Shown one piece after another: positions 7,750 to 13,585 of a stretch of 64,000 nt of DNA. The translations under genes were made by a program, and so were the position numbers. The stretch comes from Streptomyces sp. NRRL F-2664. GTDB lineage: Bacteria > Actinomycetota > Actinomycetes > Streptomycetales > Streptomycetaceae. The first letter of the stretch is position 1, and the number at the start of each line of letters is the position of its first letter. Where the stretch lies: assembly GCF_000719345.1 (NCBI RefSeq), contig NZ_JOFX01000050.1:3326-67325 (forward strand), given 5' to 3'. The notes under the pieces are model-generated. The model was not told the origin of the DNA, ran no database searches, and saw nothing but the letters and a program-made list of their open reading frames with translations.

Positions 7750-9177
7750 TCAGGCGTTCGCGGGCTCCTCGGCGACGGCCACCGGGGCGGCCGGGGCGGG
7801 AGCGCGGCGGGCGGTGAGCGCCGTGTGCACGAGCCCCCCGGTGAGGCCGGAGAGGACGAAGGAGCAGTCCACGCCGCCGGTGACGGCGAGCAGCGGGCCC
7901 TCGTAGAACGGGGTGGTCACGGCGAGCAGCCCGACCGCCGCGCCGACCGCCCAGGATGCGGTCGCCGCGACGTTCCAGCCGCCGCGGTACCAGTAGGTCC
8001 CGCCCACCGACCGGCGGTTGAAGACCTGCAGCGCGTCTTCGTCGTACTGCCCGCGGCATCGGACGTGCCCGATGAGGGTGATCACGGCCCACGGCGTGCC
8101 GATCGCGGTCAGCACCAGGACGAAGGAGGTCATCGCGGACTGCACGTCCCACTCGAAGGACCCGAAGAACACGAAGGCGGTGGCGACGGCCGCCGCGATC
8201 ACGGTGGCCGTGGTGCGGGTCGCGCGCGGGACGATGGCGTCGAGGTCCAGGCCCATGGAATAGAGCATCAGCCCGGCGTTGCCCACCGAGCCGGCCGCTG
8301 CGGCGACCAGCAGGGGGAGCAGGTACCACAGCGGCGCCGCTTCTACGAGCGGACCGGCGTAGTCCAGGCCGGCCCGGGCGGCCAGTGCCGTGTACGTGCC
8401 GAAGAGCTGCGGGACCAGCAGGCCGATCAGCAGGCCGAAGGCGGTGGCCCACAGGACCCTGCGCGAGCCGTGGCGGCGCGGTGAGATGTAGCGCGTGTAG
8501 TCGCCCAGCAGGGTGATGAAGGCGACGGGCCCGCTGAGGCCGGCGGCGACGGCCGCCAGCAGCCACGTCGGCCAGAAGGAGCCGAGCAGGTACGGGGTCT
8601 CCGGAGGCGCGGCGGTGGTGAAGTCGGGAGCGTAGGCGACGAAGCCGGCCGCCAGCAGCACGACCATGGCGACGGACAGCACCTTGCTCATGCGCAGCAG
8701 CAGCCGGTAGCCGAAGACGGCCGCGACCACGGTGCCCGCGGCGAGGAGGCCGTACATCACGGCCCGGGAGACGCCGCTGTCCGGGAGCCCGGTGAGGCGC
8801 GCGAGCGTGCCGACCATGACGTCGCCGCCGATCCACAGGGTGAGCGCCGTGTAGCCGAGCGAGAGCAGCAGGCCCACCACCGAGCCCACGAGCCGCCCGC
8901 GCACGCCGAACTGCGCGCCGCTGGAGGTGGAGAGGTTGGTCGCGGTGCGCAGGGAGACGAGGGCCAGCGGCGCGGTGAAGGCGATGCCGACGAGGGTGCC
9001 GGTCACGATGGCCGTGACCGAGGGCCACAGGCCCAGTCCGAAGGACGGGGGCAGCCAGCCGAAGACGATCACACCGAGGCACAGATTGGAGCCGAGGAGG
9101 ATCGATATCAGGTCACGGGGACCGCTGGTCCGCTCCTCCTCCGGGATGGTGTCGACTCCGCGCTGTTCGATGGGCAT
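7750..9177 (-). CDS. NCS1-family nucleobase/cytosine-type permease
   Basis: A 475-residue, roughly 12-helix membrane protein of the nucleobase:cation symporter-1 family (CodB/allantoin permease group). It shows the N-terminal cytosolic motif RTSGPRDLISILLGSNLCLG, GAQFGVRGR after helix 2, and LLGDYTRYI, the substrate-site helix of the family. ATG 9177 follows AAGGGAG; longer frames to 9261 have no supporting site. It is divergent from ureAB-ureC-aguA-tetR with a perfect 11-bp dyad in between, so uptake of a nitrogenous compound for that operon is a reasonable inference. The substrate cannot be read from sequence; cytosine, allantoin and hydantoin are all possible. Confidence 0.85.
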   Translation of the reverse strand: MPIEQRGVDTIPEEERTSGPRDLISILLGSNLCLGVIVFGWLPPSFGLGLWPSVTAIVTGTLVGIAFTAPLALVSLRTATNLSTSSGAQFGVRGRLVGSVVGLLLSLGYTALTLWIGGDVMVGTLARLTGLPDSGVSRAVMYGLLAAGTVVAAVFGYRLLLRMSKVLSVAMVVLLAAGFVAYAPDFTTAAPPETPYLLGSFWPTWLLAAVAAGLSGPVAFITLLGDYTRYISPRRHGSRRVLWATAFGLLIGLLVPQLFGTYTALAARAGLDYAGPLVEAAPLWYLLPLLVAAAAGSVGNAGLMLYSMGLDLDAIVPRATRTTATVIAAAVATAFVFFGSFEWDVQSAMTSFVLVLTAIGTPWAVITLIGHVRCRGQYDEDALQVFNRRSVGGTYWYRGGWNVAATASWAVGAAVGLLAVTTPFYEGPLLAVTGGVDCSFVLSGLTGGLVHTALTARRAPAPAAPVAVAEEPANA

Positions 9178-9281
9178 GGGGGACTCCCTTGGCAGGGCGG
9201 GGGGTGGTGGCGCTTCGTTTGAGCGACACTCAATGTGACGCACGCCCTGCGTGGAGGTCAATGATTCCGTCCAACGAAATC

Positions 9282-9308
9282 AAGAGTTAGAGTGATGCTC
9301 TAACTCTT
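9282..9308. promoter_or_regulatory. Perfect 11-bp inverted repeat between the permease and ureAB
   Basis: AAGAGTTAGAG (9282-9292), loop TGATG, CTCTAACTCTT (9298-9308). It is AT-rich against a GC-rich background and sits 24 bases before the ureAB start. The shape suits a TetR dimer, and a TetR gene ends this operon. Confidence 0.65.
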
Positions 9309-9332: not shown

Positions 9333-10070
9333 GTGCGGCTGACTCCTACGGAGCGCGACCGGCTGCTGCTCCGCAGCGCTGCGGAACTGGCCAGGGCCCG
9401 GCGGGCCCGCGGCCTGAAGCTCAACGTCCCGGAGGCCACCGCGCTGATCGCGGACACGGTCTGCGAGGCCGCGCGCGACGGCAAACGGCTCGCCGAGGCC
9501 ATCGAGGAGGCCCGCAGCGTGCTGGGCCCGGACGACGTGCTGCCCGGTGTCGCCGACGTGGTCACCGAGGTGCACGTGGAGGCCGTCTTCGACGACGGCT
9601 CCCGCCTCGCCGTGGTCTCGTCCCCCGTCCGGGGCGCGGTGCCGCTCGGGGACGACGCCCCGGGCGCCGTCGTCCCCGGTCCCGGCGTCCCCCAGCCGGA
9701 GCCGGTCCTCCACCTGCACGTGCGCAACACCGCCGACGTGCCGGTGAGCGTGACCTCGCACTTCCACTTCTTCGAGGCGAACCCGCGCCTGGACTTCGAC
9801 CGCGCCGCCGCCTACGGCATGCGGCTGTGCGTGCCCGCAGGCTCCTCCGTACGGTTCGACCCGCACGGCGAGGGCGACGTCGGCCTCGTCCCCCTCGGCG
9901 GCGACCGCATCGCGATCGGCTTCGCGGGCCTGGTCGACGGGCCGCTCGACGCCCCCGGGGCGAAGGCGGAGGCCCTGCGCCGCGCCGCGGCGTGCGGCTA
10001 CCTGGGCGCCACCCCGGCCACGGCCGCCCGGGCCGAACCCACCGACCGCCCCGAAGGGACGACGGCATGA
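9333..10070 (+). CDS. ureAB: Urease gamma/beta fusion subunit (paralogous urease)
   Basis: 245 residues. Positions 1-100 are a gamma subunit (VRLTPTERDRLLL..., LNVPEATALIADTV). After a linker comes a beta subunit with LHVRNTADVPVSVTSHFHFF and NPRLDFDRAAAYGMRL. Gamma-beta fusions are known in ureases. I chose GTG 9333, matching the canonical UreA start, over GTG 9315, which lacks a ribosome site. The stop overlaps the ureC start (ATGA). No ureD, E, F or G genes are nearby, so nickel insertion would need proteins encoded elsewhere. It appears to be the second, divergent urease set described in streptomycetes. Confidence 0.88.
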   Translation: MRLTPTERDRLLLRSAAELARARRARGLKLNVPEATALIADTVCEAARDGKRLAEAIEEARSVLGPDDVLPGVADVVTEVHVEAVFDDGSRLAVVSSPVRGAVPLGDDAPGAVVPGPGVPQPEPVLHLHVRNTADVPVSVTSHFHFFEANPRLDFDRAAAYGMRLCVPAGSSVRFDPHGEGDVGLVPLGGDRIAIGFAGLVDGPLDAPGAKAEALRRAAACGYLGATPATAARAEPTDRPEGTTA

Positions 10071-11809
10071 GCAGGCAGACCCCGCACACCGACCACAGCG
10101 CGCACTGTGCGCCGGGCAGCCGGCACATCGATCCGCACGAGTACGCGGCCGTGTTCGGTCCGCGGGCGGGGGACCGGGTCCGGCTCGGTGACTCGGGGCT
10201 GACGGTACGGGTGGAGTCCGACGCCCAGAAGCCGGGTGACGAGTTCCTGGCGGGCTTCGGCAAGACCGCCCGCGACGGGCTGCACCTGAAGGGCGCCGCG
10301 GTCCGCGACACCTGTGACGTGGTGATCAGCAATGTGCTGGTCATCGACGCGGTCCTGGGGATCCGGAAGGTGTCGATCGGCATCCGTGAGGGCCGGATCC
10401 ACGCGATCGGCCGGGCCGGCAACCCCGACACCCTCGACGGTGTCGACGTCGTCGTCGGCACCGGAACCTCGATCGTCTCCGGCGAAGGCCTGATCGCCAC
10501 CGCCGGCGCCGTCGACACCCACGTCCACCTGCTGTCCCCGCGCATCATGGAGGCCTCCCTCTCTGCGGGTGTCACCACCGTCATCGGCCAGGAGTTCGGC
10601 CCCGTGTGGGGTGTCGGCGTCAACTCCCCGTGGGCCCTGAAGCACGCCTTCAACGCCTTCGACGCCTGGCCGGTGAACATCGGCTTCCTGGCACGCGGTT
10701 CGTCCTCGGACGCGGCGCCGCTGGTGGAGGCCCTCGCCGAGGGCGGTGCGTCCGGGTTCAAGGTCCACGAGGACATGGGCGCCCACACCCGGGCCCTGGA
10801 CACGGCCCTGCGCGTGGCGGAGGAACACGACGTCCAGGTCGCCCTCCACTCGGACGGCCTGAACGAGTGCCTGTCCGTGGAGGACACCCTGCGGGTCCTG
10901 GACGGCCGCACGATCCACGCCTTCCACATCGAGGGCTGCGGCGGCGGACACGTGCCGAACGTCCTGAAGATGGCGGGCGTGCCGAACGTCATCGGCTCCT
11001 CCACCAATCCGACGCTGCCGTTCGGGCGGGACGCGGTCGCCGAGCACTACGGGATGATCGTCTCCGTCCACGACCTCAAGCCGGACCTGCCCGGTGACGC
11101 GGCGATGGCGCGGGACCGGATCCGGGCCGGGACCATGGGTGCCGAGGACGTGCTGCACGACCTGGGCGCGATCGGGATCACGTCCTCCGACGCCCAGGGC
11201 ATGGGCCGGGCCGGGGAGACGATCCGGCGCACCTTCGCCATGGCAGCGAAGATGAAGGGCGAGCTCGGCCCGCTGGAGGGCGACGGCGACGGCGACGACA
11301 ACGCGCGTGTGCTGCGCTACATGGCGAAGCTGACGATCAATCCGGCGATCGCGCACGGCCTGGCGCACGAGATCGGTTCGATCGAGGTCGGCAAGCTCGC
11401 CGACATCGTGCTGTGGCGGCCGCAGTTCTTCGGCGCGAAACCGCAGCTCGTCCTGAAGTCCGGCTTCCCCGCCCACGGCGTCACCGGCGACCCCAACGCC
11501 GCCACCGACACCTGCGAACCCCTCGTCCTCGGACCGCAGTTCGGCTCGTACGGGGCCACCGCGGCCGACATCTCCGTCGCGTTCGTCTCCGCCGCCGCGG
11601 CAGCCCTCGGCAGCGACGGGATGCCGACCCGCCGCCGACGCGTCGCCGTCCGCGGCACCCGCGGCATCGGCCCCGGCGACCTGCTCCTGAACTCCCGGGT
11701 CGGCGCGGTCGACGTGGACGCGCGCAGCGGCCTCGTCTCCCTCGACGGCGAACCCCTGCGCTCCGAAGCCGCCGAGTCGGTCTCCCTCAACCGCCTGTAC
11801 TTCCTGTAA
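10067..11809 (+). CDS. ureC: Urease-like alpha subunit with atypical flap
   Basis: A 580-residue amidohydrolase. The nickel ligands and catalytic residues of urease are visible: H152 and H154 (DTHVH), carbamylated K232 and H234 (GFKVHEDMG), H261 (ALHSD), H287 (FHIEGCGGGH), H335 and D375 (ITSSDAQGMG). The active-site flap differs: where standard ureases have CHHL, this protein reads VHDL, so the mobile-flap cysteine is Val334 and the following His is Asp336. The usual TGPAAGTHATTCTPG loop is replaced by a shorter EFGPVWGVGVNSPW. It is translationally coupled to ureAB and followed by aguA. Urea is the default substrate, but the flap and the neighbour make another ureido or guanidino compound possible. 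Confidence 0.85.
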   Translation: MSRQTPHTDHSAHCAPGSRHIDPHEYAAVFGPRAGDRVRLGDSGLTVRVESDAQKPGDEFLAGFGKTARDGLHLKGAAVRDTCDVVISNVLVIDAVLGIRKVSIGIREGRIHAIGRAGNPDTLDGVDVVVGTGTSIVSGEGLIATAGAVDTHVHLLSPRIMEASLSAGVTTVIGQEFGPVWGVGVNSPWALKHAFNAFDAWPVNIGFLARGSSSDAAPLVEALAEGGASGFKVHEDMGAHTRALDTALRVAEEHDVQVALHSDGLNECLSVEDTLRVLDGRTIHAFHIEGCGGGHVPNVLKMAGVPNVIGSSTNPTLPFGRDAVAEHYGMIVSVHDLKPDLPGDAAMARDRIRAGTMGAEDVLHDLGAIGITSSDAQGMGRAGETIRRTFAMAAKMKGELGPLEGDGDGDDNARVLRYMAKLTINPAIAHGLAHEIGSIEVGKLADIVLWRPQFFGAKPQLVLKSGFPAHGVTGDPNAATDTCEPLVLGPQFGSYGATAADISVAFVSAAAAALGSDGMPTRRRRVAVRGTRGIGPGDLLLNSRVGAVDVDARSGLVSLDGEPLRSEAAESVSLNRLYFL

Positions 11810-11839
11810 ACCAGCACAGCCCCTAAGGACCTGCCTGCC

Positions 11840-12889
11840 ATGACCACCAAGCCCGTGCACGACGGATTCCGGATGCCCGCCGAGTGGACGCCCCACGAAC
11901 GCACCTGGATGGCCTGGCCCAGCCCGAACCCGACCTTCACCACCGAGCAGGAGCTCGCCGAGGCCCGCGAGGCCTGGGGCGCCGTCGCCCGCGCGGTCCG
12001 CGCCCACGAGCCCGTCTCCCTCGTCGTCTCCCCGGGCGACGCCGAGAGCGCCCGCGCGATCGCCGGCGCCGGCGACGGCCACCCGCTCGACGTGATCGAG
12101 CGCGAACTCGACGACGCCTGGATGCGCGACATCGGCCCGACCTTCGTCACCAACGACGCGGGAGAGCTCGCCGCGGTCGACTGGACCTTCAACGGCTGGG
12201 GCGCCCAGGAATGGGCCCGCTGGGACCACGACGCGAAGATCGCCCGGCAGATCTCCGACGTGCTCGGCACCCGCACGTTCAGCACCCCGCTCGTCAACGA
12301 GGGCGGCGCGATCCACGTCGACGGCGAGGGCACCGTGCTGCTCACCGACACCGTGCAGCTGGGCAAGGGTCGCAACCCCGACTGGACCCGCGAGCAGGTC
12401 GAGGCCGAGGTCCACGCCCACCTCGGCACCACCAGGGCGATCTGGCTGCCGTACGGCCTGGCCGGCGACTACGGCACCTACGGAACCCAGGGGCACGTCG
12501 ACATCGTCGCTGCCTTCGCCCGGCCCGGCGTGGTCATGGTGCACACCCAGCCCGACCCCTCCCACCCCGACCACGAGCGCTGCAAGACCATCGCGGCGAT
12601 CCTGCGCGCGTCCACCGACGCCCGCGGCCGCCGGCTGGAGGTCGTGGAGATCCCGGCGCCGACCGTGCTGGAGGAGGAGGGCGAGTGGGTGGACTACTCG
12701 TACATCAACCACTACCTGTGCAACGACGGCGTCGTGCTGTGCGCCTTCGACGACCCGCGCGACGAGGAGGCCGCCGAGATCTTCCGGGGCCTCTTCCCCG
12801 AACGGACCGTGACCCTCGTCGACGCACGTACGATTTTCGCCGGGGGTGGCGGTATCCACTGCATCACCCAGCAGCAGCCGAAGGTCTGA
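11840..12889 (+). CDS. aguA: Agmatine deiminase
   Basis: Hydrolyses agmatine to N-carbamoylputrescine and ammonia. The 349-residue protein shows the pentein-fold motifs of the family: FRMPAEWTPHERTWMAWP at the N-terminus, DAWMRDIGPTF (substrate Asp), NGWGAQ, LVNEGGAIHVDGEGT, GHVD (catalytic His/Asp) and FAGGGGIHCITQQ with nucleophile Cys341. AAGGA lies 11-15 bases before the ATG. It follows ureC after 30 bases, so both are almost certainly co-transcribed. An N-carbamoylputrescine amidase gene, which would complete the usual route to putrescine, is not nearby. Confidence 0.95.
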   Translation: MTTKPVHDGFRMPAEWTPHERTWMAWPSPNPTFTTEQELAEAREAWGAVARAVRAHEPVSLVVSPGDAESARAIAGAGDGHPLDVIERELDDAWMRDIGPTFVTNDAGELAAVDWTFNGWGAQEWARWDHDAKIARQISDVLGTRTFSTPLVNEGGAIHVDGEGTVLLTDTVQLGKGRNPDWTREQVEAEVHAHLGTTRAIWLPYGLAGDYGTYGTQGHVDIVAAFARPGVVMVHTQPDPSHPDHERCKTIAAILRASTDARGRRLEVVEIPAPTVLEEEGEWVDYSYINHYLCNDGVVLCAFDDPRDEEAAEIFRGLFPERTVTLVDARTIFAGGGGIHCITQQQPKV

Positions 12890-12919
12890 CCTCCGGCGGA
12901 CCTGACGAAGGAGTGCCCC

Positions 12920-13585
12920 ATGGCGGCGGGTGGAGTACCGGTACGGGCGGCGCGCAGGAACGCGCCCCCGCGCGAGGACGTACTCGTCGCCGCCATGGCC
13001 ACGATCGCCGAGCGCGGCCTGGACGGCCTGACCATGGCCGGCCTCGGCCGCGAGGTCGGCATGAGCAGCGGCCACCTCCTCTACTACTTCCGCAGCAAGG
13101 ACGAGCTCCTGCTGCAGACCCTGGAGTGGAGCGAGGCCGAACTGGGCAGGGCGCGGCGGGCCCTGCTCGCCCGCCGCGGACCCGTCGCCGAGCGCCTGGC
13201 GGCGTACGTGGACCTGTACGTGCCCACCCAGGCCCGCGACCCGCACTGGACGCTGTGGCTGGAGGTGTGGAACCGCTCCCAGAACGCCGGACCCCAGGAG
13301 CGCGAACGGCAGGCGGCCATCGAGGGGGCCTGGCACCGCGACCTGGTGGCGCTGCTGGCCGAGGGCATCTCCCGCGGGGAGTTCCGCCCGGTGGACGCCG
13401 AACGGGCCGCCACCCGCATCCGCGCCCTCCTCGACGGCTTCAGCATCCAGCTGGCCGTGGGCCTGCCCACCCTCGACCGGACGGACATCCTGGCCCACGT
13501 CCGCGAGTTCCTCACCGACACCCTCGATCCCGCCGGCGTCCGCGGCGCGGCGGACCGCCCGGGCGGAGGGGCCGCGCCCGCATGA
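12920..13585 (+). CDS. TetR-family regulator (probably of the urease/agmatine operon)
   Basis: 221 residues. The N-terminal HTH reads REDVLVAAMATIAERGLDGL, then LGREVGMSSGHLLYYFRSKDEL, the standard TetR recognition helix with the BetI-like form. The C-terminal ligand domain (YVDLYVPTQARDPHWTLWLEVWNRSQ) resembles the BetI/TetR_C_6 group. A GGAG box (12910-12913) precedes ATG 12920, and aguA ends 30 bases upstream. As the last gene of ureAB-ureC-aguA it probably represses this operon through the dyad at 9282-9308; this is inference. Confidence 0.85.
   Translation: MAAGGVPVRAARRNAPPREDVLVAAMATIAERGLDGLTMAGLGREVGMSSGHLLYYFRSKDELLLQTLEWSEAELGRARRALLARRGPVAERLAAYVDLYVPTQARDPHWTLWLEVWNRSQNAGPQERERQAAIEGAWHRDLVALLAEGISRGEFRPVDAERAATRIRALLDGFSIQLAVGLPTLDRTDILAHVREFLTDTLDPAGVRGAADRPGGGAAPA

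Follow-up and report, generated by a model that had tools for sequence, protein, structure and literature searches.

The 64-kb window analysed here, a stretch of 64,000 nucleotides from Streptomyces sp. NRRL F-2664, contains an operon (ureAB-ureC-aguA-tetR) in which a urease-like enzyme and a guanidine deiminase of the AguA family are encoded side by side. We lean, with modest confidence, towards a function in which the operon would dismantle a guanidino compound in two steps, from guanidino to ureido to amine. The urease-like enzyme is encoded by ureAB (9333..10070, + strand, GTG start), a fused gamma-beta subunit gene with PF00547 and PF00699 (NF009671 304.2 bits, cut-off 243), and by ureC (10067..11809, + strand), the urease-like alpha subunit gene, whose start overlaps the ureAB stop. 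These are followed on the same strand by aguA (11840..12889), an agmatine-deiminase-family gene with a PF04371 score of 374.2 bits, and by tetR (12920..13585), encoding a TetR regulator with a BetI-like C-terminal domain (PF00440 and PF13977), with gaps of 30 bases separating ureC from aguA and aguA from tetR. Pfam and NCBIfam concur on the gene identities, and a gene for an NCS1-family permease (ncs1, - strand) is divergent from the operon; the coordinates and strands of this unit in a preliminary description of the DNA hold. Since ureC of the window type is present in 134 of 197 genomes of the order, the arrangement is not due to chance. The closest other UreC is a named S. virginiae protein (99%).

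Active site and urea pocket of UreC

Residues were mapped in a tblastn alignment of 186 distinct UreC sequences spanning at least 430 query residues, derived from 209 matched loci, and are numbered as in S. pasteurii unless a window position is given. The alignment comprised group A1 (127 sequences with at least 68% identity to the window, assigned by identity), groups A2 (6, the second branch of the window clade), B (8), and C (3), which were assigned by locus from the tree, and 42 others; the 144 sequences of groups A1 to C are termed urease-like.

The window UreC has a urease alpha fold with the di-metal ligands (H137, H139, K220, H249, H275, and D363, including the carbamylated Lys) as the preliminary description had reported, together with the catalytic residues H222, D224, H323, and R339. 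All of these are invariant in every urease-like row with a letter at the position. The residues of the canonical urea pocket are not retained. A shortened loop of 16 residues (10586..10633, + strand, UreC residues 174-189) replaces the Ala170 segment and is four residues shorter; groups A1, A2, and C share this length, group B has 9 residues here, and 40 of the 42 others have 19-20. At the flap (V334-H335 of the window, 11066..11071, + strand) Cys322 is replaced by Val and the catalytic His323 is kept, so that VHDL is read for CHHL with only Cys322 and the His following His323 altered. Ala366 is aligned with Gly (G378 of the window, 11198..11200, + strand). All 143 urease-like rows with a letter at this position have Gly, as opposed to Ala in 40 of the 42 others; for residue 322, Val or Ala occurs in 140 of 143 urease-like rows and Cys in 40 of the 42. 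The flap and loop changes had both been seen previously, whereas the proposed use of the VHDL flap as a clade marker fails: of the 127 window-type sequences, 106 have Val at residue 322, 17 have Ala, 3 have Cys, and 1 has a gap, and two further divergent groups likewise show Val-His.

Ala170, Ala366, and the Cys322-His323 flap are described at the urea site, where the carbonyls of Ala170 and Ala366 hold urea nitrogen (PMC7433671). As three parts lining this site differ, the alignment indicates that the urea-specific wall is altered and that the hydrolytic centre is retained. The earlier suggestion of a substrate other than urea is thus probable, given the remodelled pocket. Against TIGR01792, the equivalog model of canonical urease, the window UreC scores 633.7 bits, under the cut-off of 680. 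Compared with the canonical nickel urease UreABC of K. aerogenes and S. pasteurii, the window differs in its shorter Ala170 loop, Gly366, and Val322, and also in the absence of local ureDEFG and in its aguA partner.

Accessory genes and maturation

No ureG was found anywhere in the 64-kb window (tblastn with two UreG queries, E 0.001). A canonical ureABC with ureG and ureD sits on contig C9 of the same genome. The reported lack of ureDEFG therefore stands for the surroundings of the operon and not for the source genome: the accessory genes are absent locally, not genome-wide.

Within the order, four of the 134 carriers of the window type are without a credible UreG (G518, G171, G519, and G430), three of them firmly and G430 less surely. 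UreG had no match in G518, and the matches in G171, G519, and G430 reach only 22-24 bits (E 7.8e-5 to 4.4e-4), which is background level as gauged by an unrelated second match in the source genome (27.4 bits, E 1.1e-5). UreD was found in neither G518 nor G519 and as a remnant only in G171, and is present in G430, an assembly of 820 contigs. G519 additionally carries a group-C ureC. The carrier G399 was not counted as UreG-free, its UreG match of 177.7 bits being under the cut-off but real-looking and lying beside UreD. Outside the order, UreG gave no match in 11/11 genomes with completeness of 81-98%, namely G208 and ten group-B genomes (G007, G022, G037, G117, G127, G245, G106, G160, G084, and G224), whereas the same search detected UreG in three genomes with a ureG-linked ureC (G074, G218, and G087). 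An eleventh genome of the group-B family, G277, holds a piece of ureC and had no UreG match, and is only 66% complete.

Because genomes with the urease-like gene but without UreG exist, maturation is, as judged from gene content, probably accessory-independent. Occurrence is thus not confined to genomes with UreDFG, of which UreG and UreD were covered by the searches and UreF was not searched. Other factors, e.g. HypAB, may serve in maturation. The iron urease UreA2B2 works without accessory proteins, and does so with iron. No aguA partner is known for UreA2B2 of Helicobacter mustelae (PDB 3qga), unlike the window operon. Separately, in locus L120 of G171 the canonical urease cluster is decaying (broken ureC, UreD remnant, no credible UreG) and the aguA-linked urease-like operon is kept.

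Recurrent coupling of ureABC to aguA

Gene neighbourhoods were surveyed in named loci, the best 80 of 570 relatives. At the leuB/ilvE/cimA site aguA is present in 52/52 loci; elsewhere it is present in 20 of 28, in 19 of these within 1.1 kb and on the same strand. None of the 80 loci has ureG. By comparison, the 34 loci whose ureC lies outside the urease-like groups (L203-L222, L232-L238, L104, L106-L109, L111, and L114) include 33 with ureG and 0 with aguA; the one without ureG (L234) is truncated at a contig end. The contrast of 20/28 with 0/34 gives a Fisher value of 3e-10, for loci that are related and not independent. PF04371 is over its cut-off in 133 of the 134 variant-carrying genomes of the order as compared to 20 of the 63 without the variant; in the single exception, G461, ureC runs to the contig edge. 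The coupling of ureABC with an aguA-family gene that had been pointed out for the window accordingly recurs at unrelated sites.

In a tree of 40 AguA rows, the partner type of the window forms one group at 100/100. A second group unites the cytosolic AguA of secondary clusters (described below) with that of L102, and a third holds the other AguA of those clusters, with L101 on a long branch. Unlike their AguA, the UreC of secondary clusters nests inside the window type. At least three AguA lineages thus take part in the coupling, two of them alongside window-type UreC and a third alongside the more distant urease-like gene of L101. Distant urease-like genes also lie next to aguA beyond the window clade or order, in G208 (L101), G007 (L102), and G224 (L231). 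Given these differing AguA lineages, the nested UreC, and the distant pairs, the coupling probably arose or re-formed more than once.

Some loci show other neighbours. L080 and L125 are without aguA and have an amidohydrolase-like gene after ureC, and L125 and L166, also without aguA, have an amino-acid permease-type gene downstream. The amidohydrolase-like and permease genes of L080, L125, and L166 may provide a ureido compound by another route.

Phylogeny and distribution of the UreC clade

In a careful run of the UreC tree (57 rows, 55 of them different, with a root for drawing only), the window type and a Thermoleophilia-type branch split from all other UreC at 100/100. Groups B and C are placed opposite the window type, but a long-branch warning makes this placement unsure. 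The preliminary description had proposed such a tree as a check on whether the aguA and NCS1 neighbourhood is kept; the 100/100 clade largely keeps aguA, but NCS1 is missing from many ureABC-aguA loci and is not obligatory.

The 197 genomes of the order divide into the 134 with window-type ureC, 51 with only other ureC, and 12 with none. The window-type call was based on a best E of 0 or on large pieces (G399 and G568), and G558, counted among the 51, has window-type pieces at contig ends. Across 396 genomes of the phylum, matches of at least 87% identity are confined to the same genus, below which identity drops to 52%. The best 80 of 570 relatives extend the range to Streptosporangiaceae, Kitasatospora, Streptacidiphilus, Actinospica, and uncultured lineages. 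Group C (L110, L112, and L080), from Streptomyces, is a third urease-like group with a Val-His flap and neither ureG nor aguA nearby, and G424, which carries a group-C ureC, had no UreG match in its genome.

Features of the AguA partner

The window AguA was compared with plant agmatine deiminase residues (Asp94, Asp220, and a gate loop with Arg301; PMC6447857) in a set of 39 sequences including the window, the shorter H. pylori enzyme being outside the comparison. The catalytic Cys-His-Asp and the guanidinium-binding Asp94 are kept in 39/39, and guanidine chemistry is likely for the window AguA on these residues. At the place of Asp220, which binds the agmatine amine in the plant enzymes, the window AguA has Gly. 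Glu is found there in the E. faecalis enzyme (2jer) and in the cytosolic AguA of secondary clusters, Ile or Val in the other AguA of those clusters, and Asp in the L102 AguA and the NCS1-side AguA of L071. The gate loop is 15-17 residues long in 39/39, as against 30, and has 15 in the window, so that the window AguA has neither the Asp220 acid nor the gate loop with Arg301. Its TIGR03380 (agmatine deiminase) score is 321.7 bits, below the cut-off of 381.8. Due to the Gly, the short gate loop, and this score, agmatine is not favoured as its substrate, and the window AguA is unlikely to be an agmatine deiminase. N-carbamoylputrescine derived from agmatine, which the preliminary description had put forward as the substrate of the urease-like enzyme, is accordingly reduced to one candidate.

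Two further routes were considered and set aside. An AguB-like gene could have supplied the second step, but the best match in the source genome is under the cut-off, lies near a dihydropyrimidinase gene, and is probably a beta-ureidopropionase. A creatine or sarcosine route would rest on a single group-B locus, L231, with a sarcosine-oxidase/GcvT-like FAD protein encoded after aguA.

Secondary clusters

Nine loci (L074, L075, L076, L078, L171, L180, L181, L190, and L194) hold a second ureABC copy with a cytosolic-looking aguA and one to four more aguA genes. Many of the extra AguA bear twin-arginine-like leaders (judged by eye). The clusters also contain TetR genes and Opp/Nik-type importer genes, which were named by profile in L075 only and by resemblance in the others, and several contain a Ser/Thr protein kinase gene (profile-named in L075). 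An NCS1 gene is found in L181 and L190 as well, and in L071 and L195 one lies beside a smaller aguA-ureABC set. The aguA-importer part occurs without ureABC in G402 and G398. We know of no pathway that fits this combination of an aguA set, importer, kinase, and ureABC.

Divergent permease and putative operator

The divergent gene (7750..9177, - strand, likely start ATG at 9177) encodes an NCS1-family permease (Transp_cyt_pur; PF02133 298.4 bits). An open reading frame reaching 9261 is probably a false 5' extension, as judged from the sequence. The permease scores 42.4 bits against TIGR00800 (cut-off 353.1), marking it as a divergent NCS1 member, and had no PDB relatives at E 0.001.

Between ncs1 and ureAB lies a perfect 11-nt inverted repeat, AAGAGTTAGAG-TGATG-CTCTAACTCTT (9282..9308, 27 bases), a probable TetR operator that is unique in the window where 0 are expected. 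This single palindrome, conserved in place, agrees with the dedicated unit envisaged earlier. Within 20-80 bases upstream of ureAB, the pattern TTNGAG-N5-CTCNAA is exact in 67 of 96 distinct regions whose ureAB is at least 76% identical, and present with at most one mismatch in 88 of 96; shuffled regions average 0.0 exact and 0.1 with one mismatch. In 28 more distant regions it is exact in 1 and has one mismatch in 4, and secondary copies such as L074, L075, L078, and L190 lack it. The match to the AT-type palindrome is confined to the ncs1-ureAB locus in 6/6 genomes; a wider palindrome regulon was looked for in these six and none was found, the remaining loose-pattern matches being of GC type. 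We infer that the local TetR binds the palindrome. A weaker palindrome-like pair, TTTGAG-N5-CTCAA (9218..9233), near the ncs1 start is a possible second operator read from the sequence, and some relatives show similar second sites.

Proposed function and alternative explanations

In the two-step pathway that we favour, the AguA-family enzyme would convert R-NH-C(=NH)NH2 into R-NH-CO-NH2 and ammonia, as predicted from its kept Cys, His, Asp, and guanidinium-binding Asp. UreAB-UreC, as a urease-fold dinuclear metal hydrolase with an opened urea pocket, would then act on the ureido product to release R-NH2, ammonia, and CO2. For the window AguA, agmatine is not the favoured guanidino compound. 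The metal centre would be assembled without UreD and UreG, as supported by the genomes without them, and may, speculatively, hold iron or another metal instead of nickel. TetR would repress both the operon and the divergent NCS1 importer via the shared palindrome, to judge from its position and conservation.

The most direct alternative is a second ordinary nickel urease that acts on urea, relies for its maturation on the UreDFG of the canonical cluster acting in trans, and neighbours aguA since the latter also releases nitrogen. It has in its favour the full urease fold with every ligand, the ureG and ureD on another contig of the source genome, and the listing of S. coelicolor ureABC (SCO5525-5526) as urea-utilising in PMC3293853; the UreG-free genomes that hold the enzyme, the remodelled urea site, and the recurrent aguA pairing with no ureG in the named loci make it rather unlikely. 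Conversion of agmatine by AguA into N-carbamoylputrescine and on to putrescine, with the urease-like enzyme replacing AguB, appears less likely again. AguB over the curated cut-off was found in 0/20 genomes, but these include five tested without the variant. An acidic residue stands at the amine-binding place in the cytosolic AguA of secondary clusters and L102, and Pot-type polyamine transporter genes come directly after the group-B urease-like genes of L103, L223, and L224, all from a single genus, where the substrate may be cationic; for the window AguA, however, the Gly at Asp220, short gate loop, and sub-cut-off score speak against agmatine, and NCS1 carriers are, to our knowledge, not polyamine importers. 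Free guanidine or a small alkylguanidine as the AguA substrate, with urea or an alkylurea passed to the urease-like enzyme, would suit the lost amine-binding acid, which implies a small or uncharged distal end, but canonical urease would do for urea and the altered pocket would be left unexplained, making this improbable. A catalytically dead relic or structural paralogue, to which the lack of direct activity evidence lends itself, seems very improbable, with all metal and catalytic residues invariant among the urease-like rows with letters and the enzyme kept in 134/197 genomes.

Several observations weigh against the favoured two-step pathway. NF009686 names the window UreC a urease alpha subunit (738.9 bits, cut-off 354), and most variant-carrying genomes of the order also have ureG, which could serve in trans. 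In L012/L104 (G218) and L016/L106 (G074), two of the 42 other UreC, the short loop and Gly366 are combined with a CHHL flap and an adjacent ureG, an intermediate form, and the loop and Gly366 alone are therefore no proof of a new substrate. The coupling itself is incomplete: 8 of the 28 non-primary loci have no aguA within the fetched flanks, and L141 and L153, among the 20 with aguA, carry a tetR of the primary type and may represent the primary operon, its outer neighbours lying beyond the retrieved sequence. Nine genomes (G107, G431, G445, G459, G478, G499, G537, G543, and G544, the first two cut by contig ends) hold aguA at the leuB-ilvE/tetR-cimA site without ureABC, and G402 carries three copies of aguA but lacks ureC; as aguA survives without ureABC, the AguA product is not always in need of UreABC. 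The ten group-B genomes have aguA in 2 (G007 and G224), PotA and PotD in 3 (G117, G245, and G037), and neither in 5 (G022, G127, G106, G160, and G084), several of which are cut by contig ends. No assay of UreAB-UreC or AguA was found in the literature.

Relation to known systems and implications

SCO5526 and SAV2715 were placed in a UreC tree in 2008, and clusters with ure(AB)C only were already noted (PMC2492869). SCO5525-5526 and SAV2715 are presumed here to be the same gene type as the window, on account of a fused ureAB and the aguA homologue SCO5527. The accessible part of PMC2492869 makes no mention of an aguA partner, pocket changes, UreG-free genomes, or secondary clusters. In PMC3293853 SCO5527 is a homologue of the arginine decarboxylase pathway, and neither it nor SCO5525-5526 is affected by ArgR or arginine. 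PMC4991794 gives nrdABS as SCO5526-5524, presumably a misprint, and PMC3098086, a paper on urea transporters, has no bearing on the operon. The AguA-AguB agmatine pathway of Pseudomonas follows the same logic, a deiminase followed by removal of the carbamoyl group (PMC9397018), but the second enzyme of the window is a urease-fold metal hydrolase and not a nitrilase, and its AguA is without the amine-binding acid for agmatine. A literature search, with most subscription journals outside its coverage, recognised no functional study tying this ureC to aguA.

Taken more broadly, the window enzyme may belong to a large family of metallo-ureidohydrolases with the urease fold, independent of accessory proteins and active on N-substituted ureas, that were joined repeatedly to guanidine deiminases, a proposal that we hold tentatively, at just under an even chance. 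Its fullest form would be the secondary clusters of Streptomyces and Kitasatospora, in which exported deiminases and a dedicated importer would harvest extracellular guanidino nitrogen. No enzyme with the urease fold is known to us to act naturally on anything but urea, and the window-type family would, if the proposal is true, be the first.

Urease is the textbook example of an enzyme that acts on urea and requires both nickel and a helper machine. A widespread, helper-free sister group with another pocket would, if true, show how such a metal site forms by itself, and would amount to a new way of using guanidine and ureido nitrogen in soil. Many Streptomyces records named urease subunit alpha may then not mark urea users.

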